From: Kappaphycus alvarezii | Taxonomy: Eukaryota > Rhodophyta > Florideophyceae > Gigartinales > Solieriaceae | Assembly: GCA_002205965.3 (NCBI GenBank) | Contig: NADL03000465.1 | Coordinates: 124,001-188,000, forward strand | Length of the DNA: 64,000 bases | Direction: 5' to 3' | In this document: positions 3,600-58,249 of the stretch, in pieces | Layout: each line of letters begins with the position of its first letter | Position numbering within the stretch: position 1 is the first letter of the stretch | Notes under the pieces: generated by a model | Database searches by the model: none | The model's input: only the letters and a program-made list of their open reading frames with translations | Told to the model about the DNA's origin: nothing | Position numbers and translations under genes: made by a program

Positions 3600-4075
3600 A
3601 GATCCCGTAACTCAAGCGAGGCGGAGGAAGCGCGGCGGCTGGCAGCGAAAGATGCAAGGAGGCGGAAAATTTAGAAGCACTTTCTCCTGACGCCCCATAA
3701 ATGTCCATGCCGACAGGCACCAGTGAGATATCGTTGGGGTCGCAGTAGCAGCCGTAGCGCAAGATCTTGGCGTGCTCGGCGAGAGACGCAACGGCCCCGG
3801 GAGAGGAGGCGCTGTGCGAAAGGCGCTGTTGGGTGACGGGGTGGGACACAGTAACATCCAATACAATATCCTTGGCGGCTAGACCGTAGGCGGCAGGTAT
3901 GTAGAGCTCCATGCGGAAGGAAGGCATGAGGTGCGAGGGGGAGGACGGGAGCGGGTGTTCAACGAGCGCAGTGATGCCGCGTTCTTTGCAGTAGCGATGG
4001 AGGGCATTGCGAAGCACATTGTGACGCCGGGTTTGCCCGTCATCGTACTTGCAGTTCGCGACACATAACCGACTA
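3600..4075 (-). pseudogene. LINE-C fragment: C-terminal nuclease-like domain
   Basis: The minus-strand ORF reads CKYDDGQTRRHNVLRNALHR, then ELYIPAAYGLAAKDIVLDVTV, then SPGAVASLAEHAKILRYG. The RHN..R helix followed about 50 residues later by an IP...DVTV strand is the pattern of RLE-type LINE nuclease domains. The same domain recurs at 36700-37100, 13800-14072, 50500-50800 and 61124-61640. It is cut on the 5' side (high coordinate) by a short S1 repeat and on the 3' side near 3600, so only about 150 residues remain. Confidence 0.75.
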
Positions 4076-4190
4076 CATCTTCCATGCATTAAAATAACCC
4101 AAACATTTCCCCCTCATCCCGCATAACGAATTACCGGCGTGGTTATATAACCGACCTAATCTTCCATGCATTAAAATAACCGTGTAAATG
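4062..4190 (+). repeat. Two adjacent copies of short interspersed repeat S1
   Basis: Two head-to-tail copies of a roughly 50-90 bp repeat contain CGACYWMATCTTCCATGCATT followed by AAAATAACC. The first copy ends with CCCAAACATTTCCCC near 4110. The second lacks this end because the LINE-B 3' UTR begins there. Other copies are at 13227-13311 (inverted, with target duplication) and 61877-61971. The terminus resembles the LINE-B 3' end (CACCCAAACGTTTCCCC), which suggests a LINE-dependent short element. Confidence 0.6.
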
Positions 4191-4559: not shown

Positions 4560-4763
4560 TGTAATAAAAAATGGTCTTCTCTTCATGTATTACAGGAAAT
4601 GGTCCTCCCCTCATGTAATACAGAAAATGGTCCTCCCTTCATGTAATACAGGTAATGGTCCTCCCTTCATGTAATACAGGTAATGGTCCTCCCTTCATGT
4701 AATACAGGAAATGGTCCTCCCTTCATGTATTACAGAAAATGGTCCTCCCTTCGTGTAATCCAG
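4560..4763 (+). repeat. 28-bp tandem repeat array, about 7 units
   Basis: Units of about 28 bp read AATGGTCCTCCCTTCATGTA plus ATACAGGA, with point variants. The array lies at the extreme 5' end of the LTR-b insertion. Each unit contains a version of the element's own first bases (TGTAATA), so it may have grown by slippage at the LTR terminus. The other LTR-b copies lack the array. Confidence 0.9.
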
Positions 4764-5004
4764 CAACCTACAACGATCCCGCCCCTAACTTCTCCCACCG
4801 TCATTTCCAAATTTACTTCCATTTTATCTAGATATTTTTATACTGTATTTAACCCTCTGAATCGACCCGAATCAAGTCCCTTTTCCCTTTTAGCTTACCT
4901 CCTCCTCCAAATTTGCCTTTTTTGAGAAGAAGGGCGCAAATGCACTACTGCAAAATCCCTTGCAGATTTAATTTACCTATTCCTAATCTATAGAACCTGC
5001 CCCG

Positions 5005-5030
5005 GGAGCCTATTTAAACCCTTTTATTCT
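5005..5030 (+). promoter_or_regulatory. Putative promoter of the LTR-b acidic gene
   Basis: The phrase GGGAGCCTATTTAAACC is kept in all three young LTR-b copies (here, near 21170 and near 38042), about 95-110 bases before the ORF start. TATTTAAA is a plausible TATA box. It is separate from the second TATA-like element (TATATAAGC type) that precedes the R region of the LTR. Confidence 0.45.
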
Positions 5031-5124
5031 AAGTTCCAAATGCCCCGATCATTTTACTCATCTCCCCTCTCCCCACACACCCAAAACACCCTACATTGCC
5101 TCCCATTCCCCAGCGTCTATCAAA

Positions 5125-5683
5125 ATGAACAACCTTCGCCCCTCCGCCCCTATCACCAAAAACCGCCCCTCCCGCCCCATCAATGGTCTCCGTCTCGCCG
5201 CCTGCGGGCCAACCAATGCCGACGACTACCTCCGGCGGCAAACTAAGAAGAAGATCATCGAGTTCGTTCGCCGCCTCTTCATAGAAGAAGAGGCGAGGGA
5301 GGTAAGTGAGGATGAGGCTGAGAAAGTCGAGGAGGAGAGTGGGAGTCCTTCGAGGAATGGGCAGCCCCGAAGTTGGTCTACGAGGTTAAGGAGGAAGAGG
5401 AGGATCAGGATGAAGATGATGAGGGGGTTGATGGGGGCGATGAGGACGAAGATGTGGACGACGAAGATGAGGCACAGGAAGGTATGGGAAGGGTTGGAAT
5501 GGGGGAATGTATGGAACAAGTGGTACCGACTATGGAACCTGATGGGGATATCTTTAGTAGTTTAGATATCTCCCAGGGGAAATAGATATTTATGAGCCGT
5601 TCGCAGATATTTGTGGGGACTGCTTGGAAAGCATGGATATTTTTAAAGAGCTGTTTGGATCTGATTTAGAGAATGGGAAATAA
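5125..5683 (+). pseudogene. LTR-b acidic-protein gene, copy 1 (frameshifted)
   Basis: Unrecognised protein. The ORF opens with ATG at 5125 in the context CAAAATGAAC. The N-terminal 70 residues are basic to mixed, including NRPSRPINGLRLAA, a DDYLRRQ motif and FVRRLFIEEEAREVSEDEAE. A Glu/Asp-rich centre follows, then a C-terminal signature: VPTMEPDGDIFSSLDIS, a GDC motif, and MDIFKELFGSDLENGK. The frame changes near 5370 (GA-rich run) and again after DISQG near 5580, so this copy is broken. No zinc finger, signal peptide or membrane segment is evident. Homologous copies are near 21.3, 38.2, 49.7 (minus), 58.9 and 63.9 kb (minus). Confidence 0.7.
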
Positions 5684-6125
5684 CAGGACCAAATTAATTG
5701 TTAGTTTCTTAAGTATCTTTTGCTCAGAGTATATTGTCCACACAAAGTATTTTTATGCATTTCTTGGTATCTTCTGTAGTTTTGTTCGGACTTTAGGGGT
5801 AGCCAAAAGTCTGTATAAGCTGAGTACACTTCTTCCTCCTTGAGAGGCCAAGCAAGTTGGCAGACAACTTAAAGCCAAGTCCCGAGTAGTAGGAAGTTGA
5901 GAGTCAACTTCAGACCCAAGGAAACGTTTTCTTACGCTGGTCGCAGAGCGTCAGTGGTAGACTCTGCCCCATTTATACTTGCTTGTAGCTTCCTCAACTC
6001 TTTTCTATATACACTCCCTTTTGTTCGTTCAACAATACCACGGCAGCACTTTTGTCGCTCGCAACACCTCCTTCTCAGGGTAATTGGTTCTGAGAATCTC
6101 TTTCCCCGCCAATTTACCCCTATCA

Positions 6126-10540: not shown

Positions 10541-12147
10541 ATGCCTGTCACAGACAGACGCTCGCAGGACTCTGACTTCTCTCTTGCCCTTTCCAACCTC
10601 CCCACGCCTTCTCGGAAACGCAAAGCACCCGACACAAACCACTCATATAGCCACATGTATTCCGCCACATCCCGACTCGCCGCAAGACACTCACAGAAAA
10701 CGCTGAACGGTAAACGCCGAAAGGCCCAGTACGGCGACCGCTTCATACCTCTCCGCTCTGCGATGGACATGGATCTCGGCCGTCATGTCCTCACCCATGG
10801 TTCTGGAAGGGGGAATGGCTCCACCGACGACTCTACCCGCTCGAGGGTGTCCCGCATTTACGGCTCGTGTCTCGCCTCTGCCCTTTTAGGTACCTCGATG
10901 TCAGCAATTGATGCTGGTGGCAGTCCCTGTGACGTCAAGGCCATCGACAAAAAAATTCTCGCCTTTCGCGAGAAGTCCGCTGAACCGGGAAGGGTACCTC
11001 AATCCAAACCGGGTACTTAATGATCAGAACTTCTGTCGTCGCGCGATGCGTCGGGGCAGGTCCCGTTACATCCCGCAGCAAGCAGAGAAGATCCTCGACG
11101 CCCCGGCCCTCATGGAGGATTTCTACCTCAATCTCCTGGACTGGGGTTGCAACAATATGCTATCTGTGGCCCTTGCTGAAAGTGTCTACTTGTGGAATGC
11201 TGACACTGGGACCTATGCTATCTGTGGCCCTTGCTGAAAGTGTCTACTTGTGGAATGCTGACACTGGGACCATCGACCAACTCTGTGAGACCTCAGACTA
11301 CGGAGACTGTATCACATCAGTGTCCTGGATGCCTGATAGTGATTACATTGCAGTCGGTACAAATAGAAGTGAGGTCCAGATCTGGGACGTTCGGAAGTCA
11401 ACGTGTCTACGGCGCATGCGCTCCCATTCGGGACGTGTCGGGTCGCTGGCCTGGAATGGACACCTGCTCAGTTCGGGTTCCCGGGATGCAAGCATCCACA
11501 ACCATGATGTCCGCGCACGTCAGCATCACGTCGCGACACTGGCCGGCCACGAGCAGGAAGTATGTGGTTTGAAGTGGAGCCCGAATGGCAGACAGTTGGC
11601 ATCAGGAGGCAATGACGATTTGGTATGCGTCTGGGAGAACCAAAATACAGGCCCGGGGTGGACACCCACGCATCGTTTTGATCATCACTCGGCCGCTGTT
11701 AAAGCATTGGCGTGGTGCCCCTGGCAAGACAATCTGCTGACTACGGGTGGTGGAACCGCGGACAGGCGGCTGAAGTTCTGGAACACTATCAGCGGGACCT
11801 GTTTGAATACTGTGGATACTGAGTCTCAGGTGTGCGCCGTCGTGTGGTCGCCACATGATAAAGAGCTAGTGACAGGCCACGGCTACTCGCAGAATCAACT
11901 AACGCTATGGAAATACCCGTCAATGACTAGGATGGCGGAGCTCAAGGGGCATACCTCAAGGATACTTCACATGGCCCTCAGCCCGGATGGACAGACAGTT
12001 GTCTCAGGTGCTGCCGATGAGACACTACGATTCTGGAAGGTGTTCTCAGGTGCGGATACAAGACAAGGAGGAGATGGAAGGTCGCAAAACGGTAACCGTG
12101 GGCAGTGCTCATTGGAAACACTCCGGGAGAGAAGTGTCATTCGATGA
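10541..12147 (+). pseudogene. CDC20: CDC20 relic 1 (APC/C activator, WD40), frameshifted
   Basis: Cdc20 activates the anaphase-promoting complex and is the target of the spindle checkpoint. Seen here in order: a C-box (GDRFIPLRSAMD), a Mad2-interaction-type motif ([12 protein letters not shown]), [20 protein letters not shown], the [12 protein letters not shown] entry to the propeller, and WD repeats with GHEQEVCGLKWSPNG, SGGNDDLVCVWE, ALAWCPWQ and [16 protein letters not shown]. It ends in an Ile-Arg tail (ERSVIR), the known C-terminal APC/C-binding signature. Breaks: a 1-nt frame change near 10980-11000 and a 58-bp tandem duplication at 11156-11271. No introns are needed. It is the fullest of the three relics and could be read as a functional gene only if both breaks were assembly errors. 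Confidence 0.9.
11156..11271 (+). repeat. 58-bp tandem duplication inside CDC20 relic 1
   Basis: Two perfect 58-bp units (11156-11213 and 11214-11271) cover the codons for [18 protein letters not shown]. Because 58 is not a multiple of three, the frame shifts and the first unit leads to a stop at 11237. Relics 2 and 3 have a single unit. Confidence 0.95.
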
Positions 12148-13432
12148 GGAAAACCGACACCTTTTGCTGCCTCGCGAGATCCCGTGTTCTCTTCCGATAT
12201 CCGCAAGAATATTGCCGGTGGCACTGCAGGAGAAAAGAGAATTCCGAAGGGGGATCATATCGCTTCTTTTCGGTGTCTTTCCCAAGTGCTTGAGGTGATT
12301 CGTACCGCGCTACAATGATTTACTAACCATTTCGTGTTAATTCGTATCTGTTTTGCCTGTACTGCGAGTTTGCGATGTCCCGCGATGGGACGACCGACGA
12401 TGCGATATGCTGGCAACTGTTTACTTACTCCGTTTCCGGTTATCCTGTTTGCATGTTTTCGCTGTTCTGCCCGCTCTGCCCATTCTACATGTTCTGCTTG
12501 TTCTGCTTGTTCTGTTTTTTCTCATTTTTCGCATGTTTCGCATGTGTTGTGGGTCTTTTGAGTGCTGCGCGTCGTGTGCGTCTTGTTCGTTTTGCGGGCC
12601 TGTTCTGATTGTTTGAGCGCGCAACCACTTTCTTCTAAGTTTGAGTTTCTCGTTGCCACACAAGGGGAGTTCTTGAAAGCCTGCAATTTTGGAAGGACCT
12701 GACCAAGACGCAAGGTACGGAGAGGAAGGTAATACACGTTTGTCTAAGTACCGTAGATTTGCTATTGTGTCGTCGTAAGGCTGGAGGGCTCATTCCTGTT
12801 AGATATTTTGAAAAAGATTAGGAAATTTAGGGGGTTCAAAAATCACTCACGAGTAAAACGTGATCTTTTTGGTGTACTTGTTCCCCATGGCTCCCTCCGT
12901 GGCAAATGTGTCTTCGCATTAGTCTACTTGTCAACATATATCGTATTGTTTCCAATCGCTTGGAATATGTTTGGGGTATTTCCAGATGCGCAAGCTCGGA
13001 TTCGCTGCAATTTCGTCCCGTAGGTATTCTATTTGCACAAGATTATACTCGGATTTTTTGTTCGGTTGGTTACAAAGCACCACAGACTACTCACAAAGCC
13101 GCCCGTGCAAGCCTTCATCCCTTTGCCAAACGACGGCCTATTATCTATCCGGATTGTTTTCTTATATCAAAGCTGCCGCTGAAAGTTGCCTTCAACTTGA
13201 GAAATGAAGACAGGGGCGTAACACTTAGGGGGAATTTTTGGGTTATTTTAATGCATGGAAGATGTGGTCGGTTATGCCCACGCGGTTAAGGCGTAATGCG
13301 GGATAAGTCGTCGTAACACTTCCGGTTCATTTACTTTTACAGATACGCTGGCTGAAACCCAGTCAACGCTAATGGTACTGGGCGTGTACCCGAAATGTTG
13401 CGGCAGGCGCAGATGTGACTTGTTCTAAGATC
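12148..13432. other. Spacer downstream of CDC20, shared by three duplicated blocks
   Basis: No gene recognised. Collinear with 41253-42292 plus 48671-48960, and inverted with roughly 61780-63350. It contains a TTCTGCTTG-type low-complexity run (12470-12530), which is expanded in the block-3 copy. The short ORFs are not conserved between copies as proteins. Confidence 0.75.
13227..13311 (-). repeat. S1 short repeat with a 10-bp target duplication
   Basis: An 85-bp insertion lies between two copies of CGTAACACTT (13217-13226 and 13312-13321). The paralogous position near 48780 has no insertion, and the version at 61877-61971 (inverted) keeps about 95 bp. The read-out includes GGGTTATTTTAATGCATGG and the shared GGGGGAA end. 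It lacks terminal inverted repeats, which argues against a MITE and for a retroposed short element. Confidence 0.8.
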
Positions 13433-20467: not shown

Positions 20468-20831
20468 CTTCGCTTTCTTCGCTTCTTTTTGTCGCGGTTC
20501 CTCTCTTCAGTAAAAACCTTGCGACTCGCTTCTTTTTGTCGGGTTCCTCTCTTCAGCAAAAAATCTTGCGACTTCGCTACCCATCTTGCGTTTACCTCCT
20601 TAGTAATGCAGGCGAGGCAGGCTGGCACCCGTACCTGCCTTTGTAGCTAATCTATGAACGCTATCCACACAATTTCATGCTTAGAATTCATAATGATTTT
20701 CAGTCCAATTTCAAGAGTTGAAGAGGACTGTTTTTCGTTCCAACATACTGCCCGGTTACCGTTTGCGACCTTCCACCTCCTCCTTGTCTTGCATCCGCAC
20801 CTGAGAACACCTTCCAAAATCGTAGTGTCTC

Positions 20832-22329
20832 TCTTTGGCGCAGATATTTTGCCACCGGCATCTACAGGCCTATAGTTTACTGTAATAACTCTCCTTGTCC
20901 AAATTTGCTTATAGTTCGTGTCCTTCCTCGTCCTCCCTGAACCTCGCTTATAATTACCGCGGTCTTCTCCAAATTTACTTCCTTTTTATCTAGATATTTT
21001 TATACTGTATCTACCCTTCTGAATCGACCCCGATTCAAGTTCTTTTTCCCTTTTAGCTTACTTTCTCCTCCAAATTCGCTTTTTTGAGAAAAAGGGCGCA
21101 AATGCACTACTACAAAAGTCCCTTGCAGATTTATTTTACCTATTTGTAATCTATAGAACCTGCCCCGGGAGCCTATTTAAACCATTTCATTCCAAGTTTT
21201 AAACATTTCCGATCATTTTGCTCAACACTCCTCTCCCCCTACACACACCGCTCACCCCTTTTCAAGAAGTATGACATTAAATCGCCCCTCTGTCCCTATC
21301 TCCAAAAACCGCCCTTCCCGTCCCATCAATGGCCTTCGTCTCGCCGCCTACGGGCCAACCGATGCCGACGACTACATCCGGCGGCAAAAAAAGGAGCAAA
21401 TCATCGCGTTCGTTTCTCGCCTCTTCATAGAAGAAGAAGCGAGGGAGGTAAGTGAGGATGAGACTGAGAAAGTCGAGGAAGAGAGCAGGGAGTCCTTCGA
21501 GGAATGGTTAGCCCCTGAGCTAGTGTAAGAGGCTCAGGAGAAGGATGGGGAGGAAGAAAGGAAGAGGAGGATGGCGAAGAGGAAGAAGAGGAAGAGGAGA
21601 GGAAGAAGAGGAGGTGGAGGAAGAGAAGGAGGAGGATGGGGAAGAGGAGGAGGAGGAGGAGGGAACAGGGGGCATGGAAAGTGTTGGACTGGTGGGGCCT
21701 GGAATGGAGAGTATGGATCAAGTTGTGCCCACGATGGAACCGGATGGAGATATGTTTAGTAGTCTAGATATCTCCCAGGGGTATATAGAGAGCTGTGAGC
21801 CATTCGCAGATATTTGTGGGGACTGCTTGGACAGCATGGATATTTTTGAGGAGTTGTTTGGATCTGATTTAGAGAATGGGAAATAAGAGGACCTCATTTA
21901 TTGTTATTTTCTTAAGCATCTTTTGTTTAGAGTATGTCATCCACACAAATTGTTTCTGTGCATTTCCTGGTACTTTCTGTAGTTTTGGTCGGACTTTAGG
22001 GGTAGCCAAAAGTCTATATAAGCTGATTTAACTGCTTGCTCATGGAGAGGTCAAGCAAATTGGCAGACAACTTCAAGCCCAGTCCCAAATAGCTAGGAAG
22101 TTGAGAGTCAACTTCAGACCAAAGAAGCATTTATTTTACGCTAGTCACTAAGCATAAGTGGTAGACCCTGCCCCTTCCATACTTCCTTGTAGCCCATTCA
22201 ACTGTCTTCCCTATCCACTCCTTCCTGTTGGTTCAACTATACCACGGTAGCACTTTTGTCGCTTGCAACACCTCCTTCTTGGGGTAATTGGTTCTCAGGA
22301 TCTCTTCTCTTACTGATTTATCCCTGACA
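20832..22329 (+). mobile_element. LTR-b copy 2, inserted in CDC20 relic 2
   Basis: About 1,498 bp between GTCTC (20827-20831) and GTCTA (22330-22334), a near-perfect 5-bp duplication of the CDC20 sequence GTCTC. Relic 1 supplies the uninterrupted site. It ends CCCTGACA. The first bases read TCTTTGG rather than TG, so the left edge may be mutated or a few bases off. The 3' 340 bp match the LTR-a and LTR-b R-U5, with TCTATATAAGC near 22012. Confidence 0.8.
21271..21886 (+). pseudogene. LTR-b acidic-protein gene, copy 2
   Basis: Clearest copy. N-terminal part: NRPSRPINGLRLAAYGP, then DDYIRRQKKEQIIAFVSRLF and EEEAREVSEDE. A TAC-to-TAA stop follows PELV at 21526. After a GA-rich run in which the frame changes (21530-21600), the acidic stretch and C-terminal signature read through: EGTGGMESVGLVGPG, VVPTMEPDGDMFSSLDIS, then ADICGDCLDSMDIFEELFG and DLENGK to the stop at 21884. 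Predicted full product about 200 residues, strongly acidic in the middle. Function unknown. The CxxC-like pair in ICGDC is shared with older copies. Confidence 0.7.
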
Positions 22330-23275
22330 GTCTAATCGGCAGGACCTGAGACAACTGTCTGTCCATCCGGGCTGAGGGCCATTGAAGTATCCTTGAGTTA
22401 TGCCCCTTGATCTCCGCCATCCTAGTCATTGACGGGTATTTCCATAGCGGTAGTTGATTCTGCGAGTAGCCGTGACCTGTCACTAGCTTTTTATCATGTG
22501 GCGACCACACGACGGCGCACACCTGAGACTCAGTATCCACAGTACTCAAATAGGTCCCGCTGACAGTGTTCCAGAACTCCAGCCGCCTGTCCACGGTTCC
22601 ACCACCCGTAGTCAGCAGATTGTATTGCCAGGGGCACCACGCCAATGCTTTAACAGTGGCCGAGTGATGATCAAAACGATGCGTGGGTGTCCACCCCGGG
22701 CCTGTGTTTTGGTTCTCCCAGACGCATACCAAATCGTCATTGCCTCCTGATGCCAACTGGCTGCCATTCGGGCTCCACTTCAAACCACATACTTCCTGCT
22801 CGTGGCCGGTCAGTGTCGCGACGTGATGCTGACGTGCGCGGACATCATGGTTGTGGATGCTTGCATCCCGGGAACCCGAACTGAGCAGGTGTCCATTCCA
22901 GGCCAGCGACTCGACACGTCCCGAATGGGAGCGCATGCGCCGTAGACACGTTGACTTCCGAACGTCTCAGATCTGGACCTCACTTCTATTTGTACCGACT
23001 GCAATATAATCACTATCAGGCATCCAGGACACTGATGTGATACAGTCTCCGTAGTCTGAGGTCTCACAGAGTTGGTCGATGGTCCCAGTGTCAGCATTCC
23101 ACAAGTAGACACTTTCAGCAAGAACCACAGATAGCATATTGTTGCAACCCCAGTCCAGGAGATTGAGGTAGAAATCCTCCATGAGGGTCGGGGCGTCGAG
23201 GATCTTCTCTGCTTGCTGCGGGATGTAACGGGACCTGCCCGAAGCATCGCACGACGACAGAAGTTCTGATCATGA

Positions 23276-23991
23276 TGATGTGCGCAAAATGGCACACGAA
23301 AAAATAGATGAGGACCATAATTGTATACAGTATCGGAATTGGGAAGATATTTTTACAGTTTTTGAATTTGCAAGATATTTTTAATTTGGGTGAGTGTGGC
23401 AAATTCGTCGGTTGATTTTTTCATTTTAGGACACGCTGTCATAGTAGATGTCAGTACAGTTCCAGGTTGTGGGTGATACTACAAGTAGCTCTGAAAGGTC
23501 TATATAATGGCCACATCAATTCCCACCCCTGGCCGATGGGTGGCTGGCATGGGTATGGCACCTAGATATTTACCTTGAGGAAATATCTTCTAATAGTCTC
23601 TCTGGTTCACACGATTACCGTGAATACATTTTATGGTTATTAGTATGTTTGTTGAGACTTTTGGGGTAGCCAAAAGTCTATATAAGCCGAGTAAACTGCT
23701 TCCTTTAGTGGAGGTGAAGCAAGTTGGCAGACAACTTCAAGCCAAGTCCCGAGTAGTAGGAAGTTGAGAGTCAACTTCAGACCCAAGAAAACTTTTTCTT
23801 ACGCTAGTCGCAGAGCGTCAGTGGTAGACCCTGCCCCTTTTATACTTGCTTGTAGCTTCCTCAACTCTCTTCTATATACACTCCCTTTTGTTCGTTCAAC
23901 AATACCACGGTAGCACTTTTGTCGCTCGCAACACCTCCTTCTCAGGGTAATTGGTTCTGAGGATCTCTTCCCCGCCGATTTACCCCTATCA
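23276..23991 (+). repeat. LTR-a, 5' LTR of gypsy-1
   Basis: Starts TGATGTGCGC and ends CCCCTATCA. TCTATATAAGC at 23678-23688 is a good TATA box, placing the R start some 25-35 bases downstream. That is about where similarity to LTR-c begins (GCAAGTTGGCAGAC). Similarity to LTR-b starts slightly earlier, at the GGGTAGCCAAAAGTC phrase. Confidence 0.92.
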
Positions 23992-23993
23992 TT

Positions 23994-24012
23994 TGGTACT
24001 CTTGTGGAGGGG
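23994..24012 (+). promoter_or_regulatory. Gypsy-1 primer-binding site
   Basis: TGGTACTCTTGTGGAGGG begins two bases after the LTR and starts with TGG, the complement of a tRNA CCA end. The old relative gypsy-2 keeps a version at 52601 (TGGGTACTCTTGAGGAGGG). The tRNA species is not identified. Confidence 0.65.
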
Positions 24013-24078
24013 GTTGCACCCGAGGTATTCGAGTTGAGCAGTAGTAAGGAACACTTCGGGGGATTTCTTTTCGTAATC

Positions 24079-24987
24079 ATGGATCTCAATGCTGCTCGTA
24101 TAACGTTCACAGGGGGCAAGACTGAAGACGTTGAGGAGTTTCTTTACACATATGTCAACGTTGTGATGCGAGAGAAGGGCGATGAAGAGAAGGCCGCAAG
24201 TATCTTCGCCTATCTTCATGGTGACGCAAAGCACAAATATAAGTCCAAGTTTATCGACGGGTGGTCTCTTAACGGGAATGGGCGTAACTTCGGTGAGGTA
24301 TGTGAGTGGCTTGTGAAAGAGTATGCTAAGGAGGTAGAACCAGATGAGATGATTCGTACCGCCATAGAGGCCCGGCTCAACTTCGACGATTTGTTAAGCT
24401 CATTGGTGTACTTGTGTGATCTTTATGAAAAGGCTGGGTTCAACGCCCAAGCCAAGTACGGAATGCTGCGTAAGGCGGCTATGGGGGATAAGCGGCTCTC
24501 CGATTTCCTCCTCATCAAGGGCCCTCACACTTTTGATGAACTGAAGGGTACCATAGTAGAATTTGTCAAAAATTCGGAGACGTTTCAGTCACTGAGTGAG
24601 GTACCGAGGGAAACCCGCACATCGATGTCTATCGTACATCCTGAAAAGAATTATCAAAGGCCGGCTACTAGTGCAGCGGCATTAGAATCTGTCAGGAGCG
24701 ATGTCAAAAACTTGGAAGAAAGGTTGGAAACCCGATTCGATAATCGACTTGACATGATAACCTCGCAGTTGGAAAGCCTTACTCTTACCATTAAGAAGAA
24801 CCAGTCTGGGGCCCCTAAGGCCGCAGAAGTCTGTTCTTACTGTCACAAGCCTGGACACTTTGCAAACAGGTGTCCTGATAATCCACATAGAAACACTCGT
24901 TGTGCAAAGTGCGGTCGATATGGGCATCATGAAAGTAACTGCTGGTCTAAAGACAACAGAAGAGCAAATTTATCGGAAGCGGAGTGA
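24079..24987 (+). CDS. Gypsy-1 Gag with two zinc knuckles
   Basis: 302 residues from ATG 24079. The frame is open further upstream to the PBS but has no ATG there. Gag forms the particle and binds the genomic RNA. The first 200 residues are the capsid-like part (GDEEKAASIFAYLHGDAKHK, then WLVKEYAKEVEPDEMIRTAI, typical of Ty3/gypsy gag). A Lys/Arg-rich linker follows, then two CX2CX4HX4C knuckles near residues 252-265 (CSYCHKPGHFANRC) and 275-288 (CAKCGRYGHHESNC). Intact. The 3' end overlaps the protease frame by about 128 bases in the +1 frame, compatible with a frameshifted Gag-Pol. Confidence 0.9.
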   Translation: MDLNAARITFTGGKTEDVEEFLYTYVNVVMREKGDEEKAASIFAYLHGDAKHKYKSKFIDGWSLNGNGRNFGEVCEWLVKEYAKEVEPDEMIRTAIEARLNFDDLLSSLVYLCDLYEKAGFNAQAKYGMLRKAAMGDKRLSDFLLIKGPHTFDELKGTIVEFVKNSETFQSLSEVPRETRTSMSIVHPEKNYQRPATSAAALESVRSDVKNLEERLETRFDNRLDMITSQLESLTLTIKKNQSGAPKAAEVCSYCHKPGHFANRCPDNPHRNTRCAKCGRYGHHESNCWSKDNRRANLSEAE

Positions 24988-25954
24988 GTCAGGACCAGAG
25001 GTGAAAATCTTACAAAATAGAAGGGATCAAAGGTTGACGGATGCCGGTAACGTATCCATCGCTGAAGAGATTAGTCAAGTCAATGTGACAAAAAGGGATG
25101 GGGAAGGGAACATTTTATCGAAGAAACCTAGGCTAGAGTATGGAATGCTGGAGCATATCCCAGCACCTGTACCTCCTCGAACCAAGAGGTCTGATCAAGT
25201 TGTTCCAGGAGTGGGAGTCACTCCGGCCAAGAAGACGAAAAAGAGTAAGAAAGTTAAGAGTATCTCTAAGGACGTACTAGAGTATGTGAAGAGGTACAAT
25301 TTGGTGGCTGAGCTTGCATCGGCCCCAACTGGGATAACGTTTGGTCAACTTTTGAGGGGCGACGCAGAGGATGCGAGAAAAGAACTCAAAAAAATTATCA
25401 GGTCTAATAAGTCCGCTAAGGGTAAGAAACTGTTTCTTCAATCGGCCTCGACAGCACCAAGACGTCTTAAGCTGGTACCAGTCAAAGTATTGGGTATGAA
25501 AACCCAAGCTCTCTTCGATTCGGGTGCTGTTCCAAACCTCATTTCAGAAACTTTGGTGACAGATCTAGGTCTCGAAATTACTCCAACGACTCGAAAAATA
25601 ACTGTAGCGGATGGAACCGTCTCAAAATGCATGGGCACTGTTGACAAGGTTTCCGTGTTCTTTGGGGACTCTAAAGTTGATGTAGACTTTCTTGTCATGC
25701 CGGATCTCCCTTTCGATGCAATCATTGGCTGCCCCACAATGGAAAGACTAGGAACATGCATTGACTTGGGCAACCAAATGGTTTCAGTTAATATTGACGG
25801 CAGAACCGTGAAGATGCCCCTGGATTTCGACAAAAGCACGCATCCTGAAGATTTAAAAGAAACGGACAGTGAAGATTTCACTTCTAGCTATGACAGCGAA
25901 GATTCGGAACCAACTAACACTTTCGGAAGTGGAAAAGGGTACCCTCGGGGGTAA
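24860..25954 (+). CDS. Gypsy-1 protease region
   Basis: Frame +1 relative to gag, open from within the zinc-knuckle segment. The useful part probably begins downstream of the overlap. A Lys-rich linker leads to a retropepsin-like domain: KVLGMKTQALFDSGAVPNLI with the DSG catalytic triad (Asp near residue 220 of the open frame), and later FDAIIGCPTMERLG, the second conserved strand (IIG). The C-terminal 50 residues are acidic. The stop overlaps the next ATG (TAATG at 25952-25956). Confidence 0.85.
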   Translation: MQTGVLIIHIETLVVQSAVDMGIMKVTAGLKTTEEQIYRKRSESGPEVKILQNRRDQRLTDAGNVSIAEEISQVNVTKRDGEGNILSKKPRLEYGMLEHIPAPVPPRTKRSDQVVPGVGVTPAKKTKKSKKVKSISKDVLEYVKRYNLVAELASAPTGITFGQLLRGDAEDARKELKKIIRSNKSAKGKKLFLQSASTAPRRLKLVPVKVLGMKTQALFDSGAVPNLISETLVTDLGLEITPTTRKITVADGTVSKCMGTVDKVSVFFGDSKVDVDFLVMPDLPFDAIIGCPTMERLGTCIDLGNQMVSVNIDGRTVKMPLDFDKSTHPEDLKETDSEDFTSSYDSEDSEPTNTFGSGKGYPRG

Positions 25955-26259
25955 TGAACATGGCATGGGACGATTATGATTCCGGGTTTGAAACAGATGA
26001 CGACTGGAATTCTAGGATAAGTTTGAAACCCGAATGTGTTTCTTTTTGCGATGATATCGAATCAAAGGACAGAATTCGGAGCATGAAAGAAGATTACCTT
26101 TGCAAAGAAAATAAGAATACGTCGAATTCCATATATGAAGATGTGAGCACGACGGAAGAGGTCCTTCAAAATATTGAGGTTGAGGATCAAGAAGAAAAAG
26201 GGCGCCAAATGGCAGAAATCCAAGGAAAAGTGCAGCACCTTCCCGCCCCGCCTCACTGA
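25954..26259 (+). CDS. Gypsy-1 acidic linker ORF between protease and RT
   Basis: 101 residues, Asp/Glu-rich (DDYDSGFETDDDW, later DVSTTEEVLQNIEVEDQEEK), no domain recognised. It starts in a TAATG stop-start overlap. It is probably part of the Pol polyprotein linking protease to RT. The downstream RT frame is open upstream of its first ATG (26271), and the change of frame falls near the A-rich run at 26190. Whether this is a mutation or a programmed shift cannot be told from one copy. Confidence 0.55.
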   Translation: MNMAWDDYDSGFETDDDWNSRISLKPECVSFCDDIESKDRIRSMKEDYLCKENKNTSNSIYEDVSTTEEVLQNIEVEDQEEKGRQMAEIQGKVQHLPAPPH

Positions 26260-26270
26260 AAATATCCGAC

Positions 26271-27938
26271 ATGTTAACATCTTCCGAAGTAATTGCATGG
26301 AGCGTTTCAGATTTAAGACAAGCAAGTGTACCGGTTACTCACTCGTTCGAACTTACCGACACTCAACCGATTTACCACAAGCCTAGACGTCAACCGCCAA
26401 AATATGACCAATTTATCTCAGAAAATGTTACAAGTATGCTGAAAAATGATATTATTCGACCAGTTTCATCCCCATGGTCGTTTCCAGTTGTGGTCGCACC
26501 AAAGAAGGATGGAAAGCTGCGTTTTTGCGTCGATTACCGACAACTGAACCAGAGAATGATACCCGATCGATTTCCGATTCCGAACATGGAGGAGATCCTC
26601 GAGGACCTGAAGGACGGGAGATATTTCACCTCAATTGACCTTTACACTGGCTATTGGCAGATTCCATTGGATGAAAAATGTAAGGAAAAAACAACCTTTA
26701 CCAGCAAAGCCGGTACGTTCAGGTTCGAAGTGATGCCTTTTGGTCTCATGAATGCACCAGCTACATTCCAAAGAATGATGAACGAGGTTTTGAAAGGACT
26801 TCCATTCGCAAGAGTCTATATCGATGATGTCGTCATATTCTCAGAAACATTGGATCAGCACATCTCGCACGTCAAGACAGTTGTGGAGAGGATATCGGAG
26901 TATAGCTTGAAAATTAAGTTGAGCAAATGCTTCTTTGCGAAAACTTCTATCCAATTACTCGGTCATATCGTCGACCAAGAGGGAATTAGAGTGGATCCAG
27001 AGAAAACGAAAAAAATAAAGTTGGCACCAAGGCCCGCTTCAAAGACGGAGGTCCGAAGCTTCTTAGGACTGGCCTCATATTACAGAAGATTTATCAAAGA
27101 TTTCGCCAAGACTGCAGCACCGTTACATGCCAGCACTACGAAGAACGGAAAATTTTACTGGAACAAGGAAATGGAAACTGCATTTCAGGAGCTTAAAGAT
27201 AAGCTATGTGTCCCCCCAGTTCTCATGTACCCAGATTTCAAGAGACCATTCGTTGTGGAGACAGATGCCTCAGAACGGTCTTTGGGTGCCGTTTTGTCCC
27301 AAAAAGATGAAAACGGAAGACTACACCCTGTTCAATTCGCAAGCCGAACTCTGAATGATGCGGAAAAGAGATACTCAGTCTGCGAGAAAGAAGCGCTAGC
27401 TGTCGTCTTCGCGCTGAAAAAGTTTCGCGTATACCTTTTATCACTCGAGAAATTTGTCTTGATAACTGATCACCAGGCACTTAAAGCATTCCAAAAGAAG
27501 GATGTACATCACCGCTTGGCCCGATGGCTCGACATTTTCGCAGAATATCGGTTTGAAATTGTGTATAGACCCGGACGCAATAATCAGCCTGCCGATTACC
27601 TATCCCGCTTGAGGGACGCACTGATTCCAAATGAAAAAGCTTCGGAGGACATCGTCGGAGTCGCCGAGTTGCAGTTGCCGAACGATAACGAGTACGAAGC
27701 TAATATTCACGGACTGATCAAATTCCTCGATGGACTAGAAATGAGAAAGGTTGATCTTGAACACCGAAATTGGGTACGCAGGAATCAAAAGGCTTTTACA
27801 TTGTGGAATGGGAAACTCTTCCGGCACACTAAAGCCGGTCCCCGACTAGTGGCCCCTTTGAAAGAAAGAATGAAGATCTTGAGGACTTTCCATGATGAGC
27901 TAGGGCATTGGGATCTCGAAACAACCAAAAATTCGTAA
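26271..27938 (+). CDS. Gypsy-1 reverse transcriptase and RNase H
   Basis: 555 residues. RT motifs in order: LRFCVDYRQLN, FTSIDLYTGYWQIPL, MPFGLMNAPATFQRMM, the catalytic YIDDVVIF (residues 183-186), LGHIVDQEGI, RSFLGLASYYRRFI. RNase H: VETDASERSLGAVLS (Asp near 332), EKEALAVVFALKKFR, LITDHQALKAF, then RPGRNNQPADYLSR. All catalytic residues are present. The frame ends at 27938, right after the integrase HxxxH half-site (HDELGH), because of an apparent single-A loss in the A-run near 27927. The old relative has one more A at that place. Confidence 0.93.
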   Translation: MLTSSEVIAWSVSDLRQASVPVTHSFELTDTQPIYHKPRRQPPKYDQFISENVTSMLKNDIIRPVSSPWSFPVVVAPKKDGKLRFCVDYRQLNQRMIPDRFPIPNMEEILEDLKDGRYFTSIDLYTGYWQIPLDEKCKEKTTFTSKAGTFRFEVMPFGLMNAPATFQRMMNEVLKGLPFARVYIDDVVIFSETLDQHISHVKTVVERISEYSLKIKLSKCFFAKTSIQLLGHIVDQEGIRVDPEKTKKIKLAPRPASKTEVRSFLGLASYYRRFIKDFAKTAAPLHASTTKNGKFYWNKEMETAFQELKDKLCVPPVLMYPDFKRPFVVETDASERSLGAVLSQKDENGRLHPVQFASRTLNDAEKRYSVCEKEALAVVFALKKFRVYLLSLEKFVLITDHQALKAFQKKDVHHRLARWLDIFAEYRFEIVYRPGRNNQPADYLSRLRDALIPNEKASEDIVGVAELQLPNDNEYEANIHGLIKFLDGLEMRKVDLEHRNWVRRNQKAFTLWNGKLFRHTKAGPRLVAPLKERMKILRTFHDELGHWDLETTKNS

Positions 27939-28879
27939 CTGAGAGATTCTGGTGGCCCGGTATCCATAAGGACGTCTATAACTTCGTGAAAAGCTGCGAC
28001 AACTGCCAAAAATTCACTCCAATACGGAAGTATAAGACAACTCTAAGTTTTCCAGTTTCCGGTCTCTTTGAAACCTTCTCAATTGACTTCGCGGGCCCGT
28101 TCAAGGAAACTTCTTCCGGAAACAAATATCTCCTTATAGGGGTGGAACATCTTACTGGATGGCCAATAGCAGTTGCAGTCGAGGAGGCAAATGCTGAGGT
28201 GGTACTGAGATTCATCGAAAAAGAAATAATTGAACCGTTTGGTCTTCCAAAAAGGATCATCTCGGATAACGCCCTTTGTTTTACTGCAACTTCACTGCTT
28301 CGTTTTTTGGAAGAGAAAGGGATTCAGCTGAAGACCGTTCTCGCATACGCTCCTATGTCCAACGGGAAAGCGGAGAGGATGGTTGGAACCATCAAACGAG
28401 CAATATCGAAAACTATGTTGGAGAATGAAATCCAGTGGGAAGATGCCTTACCAAAAGTGTTATACGGCTACCGTCGAAGAAGAGGAAGAAATGGACGCTC
28501 ACCATTCGAGCTAATGTACGGAAGGGCTCCTAGAATGTTACAGAGAGACATGGAAACAAATATTATCGATGAAGAGAGTAGGGAAGTTGAACTACTGGCC
28601 ACCGAAGGCTGGAGATCACACCGCGCGCTAACACAGACAAGAAATAAGGATGCAGAACCTGCAGTCAGAACCTTTTCAGTTGGCTCTAAAGTACTTGTAG
28701 TACATGGAAAAGCAATGCAGCAGGCTGTGAAGTGGCCGGCCTTCCAAACCAAGTACTCGAACCCTTGCATCGTCACGGAGGAAAGACACCCGCACTATCA
28801 GCTCTGTTCAAGCTCAGGGAAGAGATCAAGGAGGGCCATCCATGCACGTCGTCTGGTCCCTTACCAATCAGAGGCCTGA
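27908..28879 (+). CDS. Gypsy-1 integrase
   Basis: 323 residues in the open frame. The CX2C half of the zinc site is CDNC (residues 30-33); the HxxxH half lies in the end of the preceding frame. The core catalytic residues are Asp60 (FSIDFAGPF), Asp120 (ISDNALCF) and Glu156 (SNGKAERMVG). The last two are 35 residues apart, exactly DX35E. A C-terminal beta domain follows (GSKVLVVHGKAM). No chromodomain is evident. The ATG at 27908 is only the first in frame; the natural protein is part of Pol. Confidence 0.93.
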   Translation: MGSRNNQKFVTERFWWPGIHKDVYNFVKSCDNCQKFTPIRKYKTTLSFPVSGLFETFSIDFAGPFKETSSGNKYLLIGVEHLTGWPIAVAVEEANAEVVLRFIEKEIIEPFGLPKRIISDNALCFTATSLLRFLEEKGIQLKTVLAYAPMSNGKAERMVGTIKRAISKTMLENEIQWEDALPKVLYGYRRRRGRNGRSPFELMYGRAPRMLQRDMETNIIDEESREVELLATEGWRSHRALTQTRNKDAEPAVRTFSVGSKVLVVHGKAMQQAVKWPAFQTKYSNPCIVTEERHPHYQLCSSSGKRSRRAIHARRLVPYQSEA

Positions 28880-29411
28880 AGAATTCCTTCTCACACAGGA
28901 CTATGCGCAACCACGGGGCATACTCATCTTTAACTATAGAATGATTCCTATGGGAGGAAAAAGGGCCTGGGAATGGATCATCTCATCTCGGTACGCGGAC
29001 TACTACGAACTCCACGTAATCATCCATTTCTACATTAATATATGCCTATGTTTTCGTACGTTGAACGGACCATTGCTACCTGAAGAAGATTTCCGACTAT
29101 TAATAAGAGTTCTATTTTCATTCCAAAACGGAAGGTTCACGGAAGCAGGTCCAGAGTTTGTGGAGGTAATATATCATTACTCTATAGGAAGATATGGAAT
29201 GGTAGCTGCTGGAGACTTGTCGCAAACGTATCTGAATATTATCCGTCCAATTTACGTATTTCTCAAGAACAACCAAGACGTGCGACTGAGAGGTTACGCC
29301 TTACCCCCGATATGGAATACAGGCTGGTCCCGTATCCTCTATGGGAACCTTACGTTTCTCCGCCACAAATTGGGAACGTTGGAGGCGGCGAGGATCCTCC
29401 TGAAGCAGTGA
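28842..29411 (+). CDS. Gypsy-1 ORF3, module 1 (env position, unknown)
   Basis: 189 residues, overlapping the end of integrase by 38 bases in another frame. No match that I recognise. It opens RPEEFLLTQDYAQPRGILIF. A hydrophobic segment at residues 57-70 (LHVIIHFYINICLC) is followed by FRTLNGPLLPEEDFRLLIRV and EFVEVIYHYSIGRYGMV. The continuation of the module switches frame near 29310 to MEYRLVPYPLWEPYVSPP. Much of this is repeated in module 2 (29665-30037). Position suggests an envelope-like or accessory ORF, but no signal peptide, furin site or classic TM anchor is clear. Confidence 0.7.
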   Translation: MHVVWSLTNQRPEEFLLTQDYAQPRGILIFNYRMIPMGGKRAWEWIISSRYADYYELHVIIHFYINICLCFRTLNGPLLPEEDFRLLIRVLFSFQNGRFTEAGPEFVEVIYHYSIGRYGMVAAGDLSQTYLNIIRPIYVFLKNNQDVRLRGYALPPIWNTGWSRILYGNLTFLRHKLGTLEAARILLKQ

Positions 29412-29668
29412 TGATGACCAGAGGAGGACCTTCAGGAGACAACAACCCGCCCAGAAGAGGTTCCGGTCGTCCCCCGAGAGGACCTCGTGCAGGTCCCAGT
29501 ACGTCAGGAGCTGGTCGCGGCCATTCATCGGGACCGTCCACCACAACTTCATCTCTAGCTCTCTTCACAACCATGCACAGCATACAGTCGGAAGAAGAAG
29601 ATTATCTTTTTGGCTGCGCAATATCTCCGAGGATGCGAACGATGCGCAGGTCATTTCTTATTTCATGA
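29312..29668 (+). CDS. Gypsy-1 ORF3 linker, Gly/Pro/Arg-rich
   Basis: 118 residues in the frame that continues module 1 (MEYRLVPYPLWEPYVSPP), then a low-complexity linker (GGPSGDNNPPRRGSGRPPRG, SGAGRGHSSGPSTTTSS). The stop overlaps the ATG of the module-2 frame (ATGA at 29665-29668). The linker plausibly separates two folded modules of one protein in the ancestral element. Confidence 0.55.
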   Translation: MEYRLVPYPLWEPYVSPPQIGNVGGGEDPPEAVMMTRGGPSGDNNPPRRGSGRPPRGPRAGPSTSGAGRGHSSGPSTTTSSLALFTTMHSIQSEEEDYLFGCAISPRMRTMRRSFLIS

Positions 29669-30037
29669 TAAGCATCTGTTTATGTTTTAGGGCGCTACAT
29701 GGACCGCACTTATCTTACGAAGATTCGTTCTTGATGATGCGCGTCTTCTTTTCTTATCGACATCCATTCCTCCGGCATCTTCCAGAAGAGTTTGCATATC
29801 ACATATATTTTTTCACTCTTGGAAGATTCGGAAGAGTCACGGAAGAAGAATGTATTCAACCCCACCTCGATGTTCAAACCAATATATGAGGCTATGCTAC
29901 AAAGTGAGGTACCAGTAATGCGAACCTACTTTTTAGAGCATCATATTGGTAATCAGTTGCATCCGTACCCGTTTGAGAGACCATACATTTTATCAATAAG
30001 ACAGCGAACACTAACGGAAGCAGAAGAAGAGCAGTGA
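29665..30037 (+). CDS. Gypsy-1 ORF3, module 2 (diverged duplicate of module 1)
   Basis: Read in two frames (29665-29889, then 29792-30037). Aligned with module 1: ICLCFRALHGPHLSYEDSF against ICLCFRTLNGPLLPEEDF; EFAYHIYFFTLGRFGRV against EFVEVIYHYSIGRYGMV; HPYPFERPYILS against VPYPLWEPYVSP. This is a tandem duplication with about 40% identity by eye. Gypsy-2 keeps both modules in remnant form (57600-58200), so the two-module layout predates their divergence. Function unknown. Confidence 0.65.
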
Positions 30038-30054
30038 CGAGTCGGGACGTTCGT

Positions 30055-30070
30055 CTTGAGCGAGAGGGCG
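30055..30070 (+). promoter_or_regulatory. Gypsy-1 polypurine tract
   Basis: TGAGCGAGAGGGCG lies immediately before the 3' LTR (TGATG at 30071), in the right place for plus-strand priming. It is short and interrupted by pyrimidines. Confidence 0.5.
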
Positions 30071-30788
30071 TGATGTGCGCAAATTCGCACACGAAAAAAT
30101 CTAGATGAGGACCATGATTGTATACAGTATCGGAATTGGGAAGATATTTTTACAGTTTTTGAATTTGCAAGATATTTTTAATTTGGGTGAGTGTGGCAAA
30201 TTCGTCGGTTGATTTTTTCATTTTAGGACACGCTGTCATAGTAGATGTCAGTACAGTTCCAGGTTGTGGGTGATACTACAAGTAGCTCTGAAAGGTCTAT
30301 ATAATGGCCACATCAATTCCCACCCCTGGCCGATGGGTGGCTGGCATGGGTATGGCACCTAGATATTTACCTTGAGGAAATATCTTCTAATAGTCTCTCT
30401 GGTTCACACGATTACCGTGAATACATTTTATGGTTATTAGTATGTTTGTTTGAGACTTTTGGGTAGCCAAAAGTCTATATAAGCCGAGTAAACTGCTTCC
30501 TTTAGTGGAGGTGAAGCAAGTTGGCAGACAACTTCAAGCCAAGTCCCGAGTAGTAGGAAGTTGAGAGTCAACTTCAGACCCAAGAAAACTTTTTCTTACG
30601 CTAGTCGCAGAGCGTCGTGGTAGACCCTGCCCCTTTTATACTTGCTTGTAGCTTTCTCAACTCTCTTCTATATACACTCCCTTTTGTTCGTTCAACAATA
30701 CCACGGTAGCACTTTTGTCGCTCGCAACACCTCCTTCTCAGGGTAATTGGTTCTGAGGATCTCTTCCCCCGCCGATTTACCCCTATCA
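30071..30788 (+). repeat. LTR-a, 3' LTR of gypsy-1
   Basis: 718 bp, nearly identical to the 5' LTR. Differences include AAATTCGC for AAATGGC near the start, one deleted base in GTCGTGG near 30615, and an indel in the TTTGAG/TTGAG run near 30450. TATA box at 30474-30484. Confidence 0.92.
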
Positions 30789-37360: not shown

Positions 37361-37772
37361 AGTAGTGTACAGTACTTTGAAAACCCCGTTTCGCCGTGAA
37401 GCTTTTAAAAACGCACTTTTTTGTGTTCTAATCCCCTTGGTTGATCCCCGGGTTTGCGTTCCTCCATCCGCCAGATTCCTGATTTGTTACCGTACATAAT
37501 TTCTGCGAGGATTTCGCAGCCATCCCTCCGCTCGAGGTTCTTTTCCAACCACTGCCACTGCCACCGACACCTTTACCTTCCTCCCACCTCCTCTCTCCTC
37601 TTAATTTCTTAATTGCTTCTCACTGCTTCATACAAATCTTTTGTTTTCTGCTTCTCTTTTGCTGCGCTTCTCCTCGCTTTTTGCTTCGCAAATCTCCTCC
37701 CTCTCATACCTGTGCAGAGTCAAACTTATCAAGGCAACATCCAATATGCCTGTCACGGACAGACGCTCGCAG

Positions 37773-39211: not shown

Positions 39212-40650
39212 GTCCCCACGCCTTCTCGGAAACGCAAAGCACCCGACACAAACCACTTATATAGCCACATGTATTCCGCACATCCAGACCCGCCGCAAGA
39301 CACTCACAGGAAAAGTGAAACGGTAAACGCCGAAAGGCCCAGTACCGGCGACCGTTTCATACCTCTCCGTTCTGCGATGGACATGGATCTCAGCCGTCAT
39401 GTCCTCATCCATGGTTCTGGAAGGGAGAATGGCTCCACCGACGACTCTATCCGTTCGAAAGTGTCCCACATTTACGGCTCGTGTCTCGCCTCTGCCCTTT
39501 TAGGAACTTCGATGTCGCAACTGATGCTGGTGGCAGTCCTTGTGACGTCAAGGCCATCGAAAAAAATTTCTCGTCTTTCGCTAGAAGTCCGCTGAATCTA
39601 GGGAAGGGTACCTCAATCCAAACCTAGTACTTTATGATCAGAACTTCTGTCGTCGCGCGATGCGTCGAGGCAGGTCCCGTAACATCCGCAGCAAGCAGAG
39701 AAAATCCTCGATGCTCGACCTCATGGAATATTTCTACCTCAATCTCCTGGATTGGGGTTGCAACAATATGCTTTCTGTGGCCTCGCTAAAACTGTATACT
39801 TGTGGAATGCTGACATGGGACCATCGACCAACTCTGTGAGACCTCAGACTACGGAGACTGTATCACATCAGTGTCCTGGATGCCTGATAGTGATTACATT
39901 GCAGTCGGTACAAATAGAAGTGAGGTCCAGATCTGGGACGTTCGGAAGTCAACGTGTCTACGGCGCATGCGCTCCCATTCGGGACGTGTCGGGTCGCTGG
40001 CCTGGAATGGACACCCTGCTCAGTTCGGGTTCCCGGGATGCAAACATCCACAACCATGATGTCCGCGCACGTCAGCATCACGTCGCGACACTGGCCGGCC
40101 ACGAGCAGGAAGTATGCGGTTTGAAGTGGAGCCCGAATGGCAGACAGTTGGCATCAGGAGGCAATGAAGATTTGGTATGCGTCTGGGAAACCAAAACACA
40201 GGCCGGGGTAGACACCACGCATCGTTTTGATCATCACTCGGCCGCTGTTAAGCATTGGCGTGGTGCCCTGTTAAGACAATATGCTGACTACGGGTGGTGG
40301 AACGCGGACAGGCGGCTGAAGTTCTGGAACACTATCAGCGGGACTTGTTTGAGTACTGTAGATACTGAGTCTCAGTGTGCCCGTCGTGTGGTCTCCACAT
40401 GATAAAGAGCTCGTGACAGGCCACAGCTACTCGCAGAATCAACTAACGCTATGGAAATACCCGTCAATGACTAGGATGGCGGAGCTCAAGGGGCATACCT
40501 CAAGGATACTTCACATGGCCCTCAGCCCGGATTGACAGACAGTTGTCTCAGGTGCTGCCGATGAGACATTACGATTCTGGAAGGTGTTATCAAGTGCGGA
40601 TATAAGACAAGGAAGAGAGGGAAGGTCGCAAAACGGTAACCGTGGGCAGT

Positions 40651-52599: not shown

Positions 52600-52639
52600 T
52601 TGGGTACTCTTGAGGAGGGAACTGCCTCCTATGTATTCA

Positions 52640-58215: not shown

Positions 58216-58249
58216 TTTACTAATGAGAGAGAGAGCTTGTTGTTAGAAA

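Follow-up and report, generated by a model that had tools for sequence, protein, structure and literature searches.

Can the LTR of a retrotransposon hold a protein gene of its own? Such repeats do not normally encode proteins, and a solo LTR is usually taken for a dead remnant. A preliminary description of a 64-kb stretch of DNA (the window; C461:124001–188000) raised this question at positions 5005–5683, where it placed an open ORF of about 200 codons, with its own TATA-like box, inside the U3 of an LTR (LTR-b) of a gypsy-type element, and proposed that every solo LTR of this kind would be a mobile single-gene cassette. Here we compare this locus with its relatives in the window and across the genome (336 Mb, 884 contigs searched), and weigh what its product might do.

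A broken copy with intact relatives

The LTR at this locus, copy c1, is a solo LTR at 4560–6125 on the + strand, as are all of its features. It has the TG...CA ends and short target duplication attributed to it, beginning TGTAATA and ending CTATCA like the other copies, between flanks GAAAC and GAACC that are alike at four of five bases. The 5′ end of U3 (4560–4766) carries 28-bp tandem repeats, recognized from self-matches, whose 9-base core has six exact matches in c1 and zero to six per copy genome-wide. The TATTTAAA box at 5011–5018, a putative promoter of the U3 gene, lies 114 bp before the ATG at 5125, in keeping with the TATA-like box described at about 100 bp; its 14-base surrounding is exact in 34 of 42 copies (mismatches ≤2). 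Downstream of the U3 ORF (5125–5683, closed by a stop), which is of type b and has intact homologues in L010 and other copies, a second TATA box (TGTATAAG in c1; 5810–5820) stands at the U3/R border; it would be the promoter for the genomic RNA, and its 15-base TATATAAG context is exact in 31 of 42 copies. The end of U3, R and U5 (5781–6125, with an inferred start of R) are common to LTR-b and the gypsy-1 LTR, also as first described, at 91–93% over about 345 bp.

What did not hold for c1 is the open ORF of about 200 codons. The frame changes twice, and the longest ORF from an ATG (146 codons) encodes the product in about its first half only. Every copy observed in the window is broken, and the ORF is intact, at 182–191 aa, elsewhere in the genome, including in L010, a sister of c1. 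The c1 insertion is duplicated on contig C74 as L009 and L010; because the three are segmental duplicates of one insertion, with the same flanks, they are not independent. The product ends FGSDLENGK, which agrees with the FGSDLEN noted previously.

Other LTR copies lie in the window. Copy c2 (20832–22329, + strand; ORF broken) is inserted in a cdc20 copy with the target duplication GTCTC/GTCTA, and the empty site is found in the window at 12019–12023; thus, the ORF and R-U5 moved as one unit. Copy c3 (37774–39211, + strand), with a deleted 5′ end and a broken ORF of type d, interrupts a cdc20 copy in its N-terminal part, the unoccupied site being at about 10568–10599. Copy c4 (63385–64000, − strand) is cut by the window edge and holds the C-terminal part of a broken ORF only. 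Two diverged copies with approximate outer limits were recognized with tblastn and nhmmer: c6 (48965–50350, − strand), which has a decayed type c ORF and genome-wide relatives, and c7 (58241–59643, + strand), which has a decayed ORF.

These 64 kb contain no fewer than three intronless cdc20 copies, each of them decayed or interrupted (10541–12147; 20747–20831 with 22330–23273; 37355–37773 with 39213–40650). The cdc20 sequence lies in a duplicated segment; two copies were struck by c2 and c3, and the c2-struck copy also abuts gypsy-1. The best named matches of a window cdc20 copy are from Gracilariopsis chorda (74%), Agarophyton chilense (73%) and Gracilaria domingensis (71%), and unnamed proteins reach 79%. 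The window DNA is rich in repeats and most likely comes from a florideophyte red alga. A short repeat containing ATCTTCCATGCATTAAAATAACC occurs at 4064–4181, 13228–13307 and 61888–61955; a type c LTR elsewhere in the genome (L092) is inserted in a copy of this repeat, and the window copies at 4077 and 4159 are unoccupied. Rfam and tRNA scans led nowhere.

The ORF lies in both LTRs of complete elements

The gypsy-1 element (23276–30788, + strand) resembles the LTR-b elements in its gag-pol backbone and R-U5, with a short U3 that lacks the ORF. Its pol ORF matches RVT_1 (1.8e-35) and RT_RNaseH (3.8e-38), and rve (6e-10) lies downstream; its flanks, CATGA and GATTT, show no matching target duplication. 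Internal pieces of three LTR-b elements, L023/L022 among them, match gypsy-1 protease and pol at 74–100%, depending on the segment, and the start of the internal region of L040 matches gypsy-1 gag at 100% over 82 residues. The carrier of the ORF therefore has the characters of a Ty3/gypsy element: RT, RNase H and then integrase after RNase H, together with TG...CA LTRs, a short target duplication and a PBS-like stretch after 5′ LTRs.

In gypsy-1, the interval from integrase to the 3′ LTR holds further ORFs at 28842–29411, without a Pfam match, and at about 29560–30037; in LTR-b elements the version of the second is 38–40% like the first. Another gypsy element in the window (51905–58178) is decayed, about 70% like gypsy-1, and has an ORF-less 5′ LTR. 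The ORF-type LTR c7 occupies the expected start of its 3′ LTR, and the R-U5 of c7 and of that 5′ LTR are only 51% alike.

Against the genome, the c1 ORF region gave 41 matches, with 40 of 3183 first-look candidates scored; copy counts are lower bounds. With c1, c2 and c3, and with c4 left out because of the window edge, 39 further copies make up a set of 42. Ten of these have an intact ORF of 182–191 aa, and in the intact ORFs of L030 and L043 the acidic run is read in another frame, after which the frame is regained. A perfect 5-bp target duplication with TG...CA ends surrounds 15 of the 42, 13 by script and two by eye (L021 and L038, whose U3 start differs from that of other copies), where chance would give a perfect duplication in about 1 in 1000 per copy. 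The PBS-like stretch follows the LTR in 8 of the 42, and the internal 3′ end, GAGAAAGGGGGCG, directly precedes it in 9 by script. In a tree of the 42 LTRs, the intact copies did not cluster beyond shuffles (284 of 500 as low).

An 87-residue N part derived from L034 is found at a minimum of 150 places in the genome (6393 first-look candidates), all at 100% and without a stop. Among the 150 listed places, 89 form 46 same-strand neighbour pairs less than 9 kb apart, 41 of which are spaced by 7.5–7.7 kb, the size of a complete element. Thirty loci taken from this list include 7 with the full ORF, 4 with a perfect duplication around the LTR, 13 with the PBS after the LTR and 12 with GAGAAAGGGGGCG before it, of which one is probably miscalled. 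Of the 23 non-intact loci, 22 lose the frame after the N part and before the C-terminal part, within or close to the purine-rich acidic run; such breaks would be either slippage in the genome or assembly errors, the two being indistinguishable. With at least 150 places sharing an identical 87-aa N part and LTR pairs 96.8% to about 99% alike, the family is abundant and looks recently active.

Complete elements settle where the ORF resides. Those bounded by L023/L022 (C653), L059/L060 (C567) and L061/L064 have target duplications GCCCT, CCCCC and CAGGT and LTRs that are 98.97%, 99.2% and 96.8% alike, respectively; overall, LTR pairs are about 99% alike in three elements and 96.8% in the fourth. 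The ORF region is present in both LTRs of the C653, C567 and C575 (L034/L035) elements, open in both in C567 and C575 and in one in C653, and the PBS follows the 5′ LTR. The differences between the paired LTRs L059/L060, L061/L064 and L034/L035 include many gaps. Thus, the proposal of a gene inside an LTR is borne out, since complete elements hold an ORF-bearing LTR on both sides of gypsy-type gag-pol. The suggested check for a separate nested insertion likewise favours it, the ORF being enclosed in a unit that has TG...CA ends and just one target duplication, and being present in both LTRs of complete elements; so does the search for intact frames (10 of 42 copies, and 7 of 30 others). A host gene beside the LTR was rejected because the same LTR-ORF unit occurs at many places.

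Solo LTRs also carry the ORF. L065 is a solo LTR with an intact ORF and the duplication CCCTC, and L029 is of the same kind, with GATGG. The notion of a mobile cassette must be given up, as a solo LTR is not itself mobile and is a remnant of recombination; that solo LTRs carry the gene holds for those that keep the ORF intact (L029, L065, L092 and L095) and fails for c1, a dead copy. At C529:534–545k, L040 and L030 are both preceded by the internal 3′ end and followed by the PBS, an arrangement that looks as in a tandem array, LTR-internal-LTR-internal.

The reading frame is under purifying selection

The diverged window copies have a common reading frame with an excess of differences at third positions. 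In the N part, c1 and c3 differ at 29, 18 and 39 sites at codon positions 1, 2 and 3 (72–73 sites each; chi-square p = 0.0013), and over the whole ORF the three window pairs gave chi-square p values of 1.5e-6, 0.00065 and 0.0008; for the N part of c1 and c2 alone the signal was not significant (p = 0.2). The flanks lacked codon periodicity, with the 3′ flank of c1–c3 a borderline exception (p = 0.06). For the c1–c3 N part, dN/dS was 0.28 in the ORF frame vs. 0.75 and 1.9 in the other frames, and over the last 36 codons of c2–c3 it was 1.26. As non-coding control frames of the LTR spread from 0.50 to 1.72, a single ratio below 1 means little.

The intact type b ORFs, with the acidic run left out, gave dN/dS of 0.19–0.28 between the two main subfamilies (L010, L020 and L022 vs. 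the L029–L045 group) and 0.27–0.48 within them, near-identical pairs aside, with Fisher p from 5e-8 to 7e-5 in four comparisons. Picking intact copies excludes stops and not amino acid changes, so the choice of copies alone cannot yield low ratios. These values indicate that the type b ORF is under purifying selection. The dN/dS check proposed in the preliminary description therefore gave a value away from 1 between subfamilies, and between ORF types synonymous changes far outnumber non-synonymous ones. A chance frame in purine-rich DNA was rejected, as the signal persists without the acidic run.

ORF and surrounding LTR have different histories

The ORF comes in three types (b, c and d), each found at 150 or more genome places. 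Comparison of the three lists was by eye and covered a few contigs; as the N parts of the types are only 46–66% alike, the lists do not hold the same places. For type c, a 47-residue N part of L057 is found at 150 places or more, 72–81% other than itself, two with a stop. The c6 DNA matches the genome at least 51 times (40 of 2000 candidates scored), at 69–84% apart from itself, and in eight c6-type loci (c6 and seven relatives) there was no full-length ORF among the three longest per locus. Four type c loci (L089–L092) were fetched for their long open frames. L092, a solo LTR of 1361 bp flanked by the duplication TCTTC, holds an intact ORF of 199 aa, and L090, with AACTT, is frame-shifted in its later part. 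Both LTRs start like that of gypsy-1 (TGATGTGCGC or nearly), so the ORF-less gypsy-1 U3 and the ORF-bearing type c U3 share a 5′ end; L089 and L091 have a start other than TGATGTGCGC. For type d, a piece of c3 is found at no fewer than 150 places, 67–79% other than itself and a few with a stop. Among three loci (L094–L096), again chosen for long open frames, L094 is intact (192 aa) in a 5′ LTR with the PBS, L095 is intact (195 aa) in a solo LTR of 1491 bp with the duplication GTCTC, and L096 loses the frame near its end.

Between types b and c (L034 vs. L092), the N part differs at 38 of 41.7 synonymous sites and at 46 of 132.3 non-synonymous ones, with 28 of 58 residues alike; N and C parts together have 62 of 111 residues alike (Fisher p = 2e-16). 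Synonymous sites are thus near saturation, yet 54–56% of the compared residues agree. Types b and d (L034 and L095) share 38 of 58 residues in the N part, with a synonymous difference of 0.66, and 51 of 55 in the C part, and their LTR flanks differ by 0.11–0.16. Even within type b, the ORFs of L010 and L034 have a dS of 0.36 where the flanks differ by 0.025–0.046. As ORF dS far exceeds flank divergence, the coding part has an older history than the surrounding LTR; exchange of ORF segments between LTRs would be the simplest reading, and constraint on the flanks could contribute to the contrast. The LTR is therefore modular, its ORF N-terminal half being far more diverged than what surrounds it. 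In c2, L021 and L038 a type b ORF stands with a TGTTAGGCG-like U3 5′ module, and type c ORFs stand with two different 5′ modules among four copies; U3 5′ module and ORF type are not strictly linked.

A product with a basic start and a conserved tail

The product has a basic start (M-x-N-L-R-P-S), an acidic run and a conserved, acidic-hydrophobic C-terminal part. A long helix is predicted in the variable N-terminal half, in a low-confidence model of the N part (pLDDT 69, pTM 0.32). Seven residues (F, I, C, C, D, F and G) do not vary in an alignment of the C-terminal ends of two type b copies, c6 and c7; in L092, whose type c ORF is intact, the first of the two cysteines is absent. Type c products (L089–L092) carry VIVISDSSDEDEE or variants before the last acidic run, which we take to resemble a SUMO-interacting motif. 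The earlier impression that the product resembles nothing known is upheld: no Pfam family scored above the cut-off (E up to 10 in one search and 1 in another), PDB sequences gave chance-level matches (E of 0.55 and up), and none of 20 protein database candidates for the broken c1 product matched at E up to 10. Pfam includes a Sag family; similarity to Sag was not found, all Pfam families being below the cut-off.

Discussion

At the level of sequence, these comparisons establish that a Ty3/gypsy-type family of this red alga holds a conserved protein gene inside its LTR U3. With the gene in U3, a complete element has two copies and a solo LTR keeps one. The gene would be transcribed from its own putative TATTTAAA promoter, and the genomic RNA would have a separate start, close to the second TATA box, the one that stands at the U3/R border.

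The closest precedent is MMTV sag, a gene lying mostly in U3, for which one U3-internal promoter is described and whose LTR is said to be conserved because it is coding (PMC4667437). The likeness is the gene in U3, here in the U3 of both LTRs. The differences are that MMTV is an animal betaretrovirus and sag encodes a superantigen, whereas the red-algal element is of Ty3/gypsy type and its product has no known domain, with the whole ORF in U3, in three types, and intact in solo LTRs. In HIV-1, an antisense gene that starts at TAR is reported in U3-R (PMC1654176); it too is inside the LTR, whereas the red-algal ORF is on the sense strand, between two TATA boxes, in a retrotransposon. These two were the genes inside LTRs, and none was in a Ty3/gypsy element, in the open-licence literature searched. 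A grass 'gene within the LTR' was discarded as a precedent, since in the passages seen the gene is inside the LTR retrotransposon and not in the LTR itself (PMC1560396). The search of open-licence literature on Gracilaria-like algae gave no paper on LTR genes.

Other elements share single features. Subfamilies of crapaud in Podospora differ mostly in U3 and show signs of recombination between them; unlike here, the U3 that varies is shorter than 200 bp, and both of the ORFs depicted, Gag and Pol, are internal (PMC10787394). Plant LTR retrotransposons have additional ORFs beyond gag-pol, likewise accessory, none of them placed in the LTR in the passages on them (PMC7264820). Steamer-like element 1 of Mytilus has a small extra ORF (67 aa), whose transcription the LTR may drive; it is antisense and, in the corresponding passages, not placed in the LTR (PMC10974842). 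Foamy virus Tas and the 3′ORF of snakehead retrovirus (SnRV) are accessory ORFs near the 3′ end with a shown or proposed action on the LTR; they start at the end of env, unlike the red-algal ORF in U3 (PMC12193657).

What might the product do? We give roughly an even chance to a trans-acting regulator of the family's own LTRs, either an activator or an anti-silencing factor. Such a protein would act in the nucleus, in trans, on family LTRs, its N-terminal half choosing the target and its tail recruiting an effector. Any LTR with an open ORF, solo LTRs included, could supply it, so that gypsy-1 and other relatives without the ORF could draw on it in trans. The ORF's own TATA box, the varying tandem repeats in U3, the contrast between a variable N half and a steadier tail, and the existence of relatives that share a similar backbone and have no ORF would all fit. 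The nearest functional model may be found in the VANDALs, which are Mutator-like DNA transposons. Their VANC anti-silencing proteins have conserved and variable parts and target fast-diverging non-coding tandem repeats (PMC10398659, PMC5735166). The red-algal U3 has tandem repeats and its product varies in the N half; VANC differs in being a DNA-transposon protein, and the likeness drawn here is one of description. On its reverse strand the 28-bp unit contains GTATTAC, a sequence that is also part of the VANC21 motif YAGTATTAC; this may be chance.

Several observations temper the regulator reading. No known domain turned up in the product, the model of its N part is of low confidence, and one of the seven invariant residues is missing from the intact type c ORF. 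By analogy, an acidic tail and a basic start would be weak evidence: the SnRV 3′ORF was called a transactivator on acidic/basic features, and its mutants point to no major activator (PMC12193657). Moreover, the imperfect link between U3 module and ORF type argues against a simple reader-target pair, as a tighter link would be expected if the N half reads the U3 repeats. A broader version, which we hold more tentatively, is that the LTR is a modular self-contained gene and that solo LTRs with open ORFs form a dispersed gene family controlling all members in trans, ORF-less ones included. If so, 5′ U3 modules and ORF N halves would be interchangeable on a steadier C half and R-U5, and the diverged N-terminal halves would be alternative specificities.

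It is unlikely, though worth weighing, that the product, like MMTV Sag or lentiviral Nef, is an accessory factor aimed at the host, acting on the host cell (e.g. on defence or the SUMO pathway) and not on the LTR. The best documented gene lying mostly in U3 encodes just such a protein, a superantigen (PMC4667437), diverged N-terminal alleles would fit an arms race, and the type c VIVISDSSDEDEE may be a SUMO-interacting motif. However, that motif is not obvious in types b and d, and dN is below dS in both the N and C parts between types, with no sign of positive selection over whole parts.

Still less probable is a self-limiting role, in which a small protein expressed from an internal promoter would restrain transposition of the family as p22/p18 restrains that of Ty1. 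The ORF has its own TATA box, and many dispersed copies could supply the product in trans, but p22 is a truncated Gag, whereas the U3 ORF is outside gag and has no Pfam match above the cut-off; nor does restraint sit well with a family that is abundant and looks recently active. We regard as very improbable a passenger, captured once, without a present role and tolerated by U3: most copies are broken (32 of 42; 23 of 30), but the selection signal between subfamilies and types, with frames kept across near-saturated synonymous divergence, largely excludes this as to the past. Finally, that the ORF is an ordinary internal gene after pol and LTR-b a 3′-end fragment of the element, as the extra ORFs of gypsy-1 (28842–29411 and beyond) might suggest, is refuted by elements with paired LTRs and can be practically dismissed, since in 5′ LTRs the PBS comes after the ORF (8 of 42; 13 of 30), the LTR unit starts right after GAGAAAGGGGGCG or, in solo copies, at perfect 5-bp target duplications, and the post-pol ORFs encode different proteins that are also present upstream of the LTR.

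Because a conserved gene lies in U3, removal of an element through LTR recombination need not remove the gene. The mosaic pattern offers a way to study gene exchange between LTRs. In this red alga, a retrovirus-like family carries in its LTRs a small protein gene whose sequence selection has preserved in many copies.
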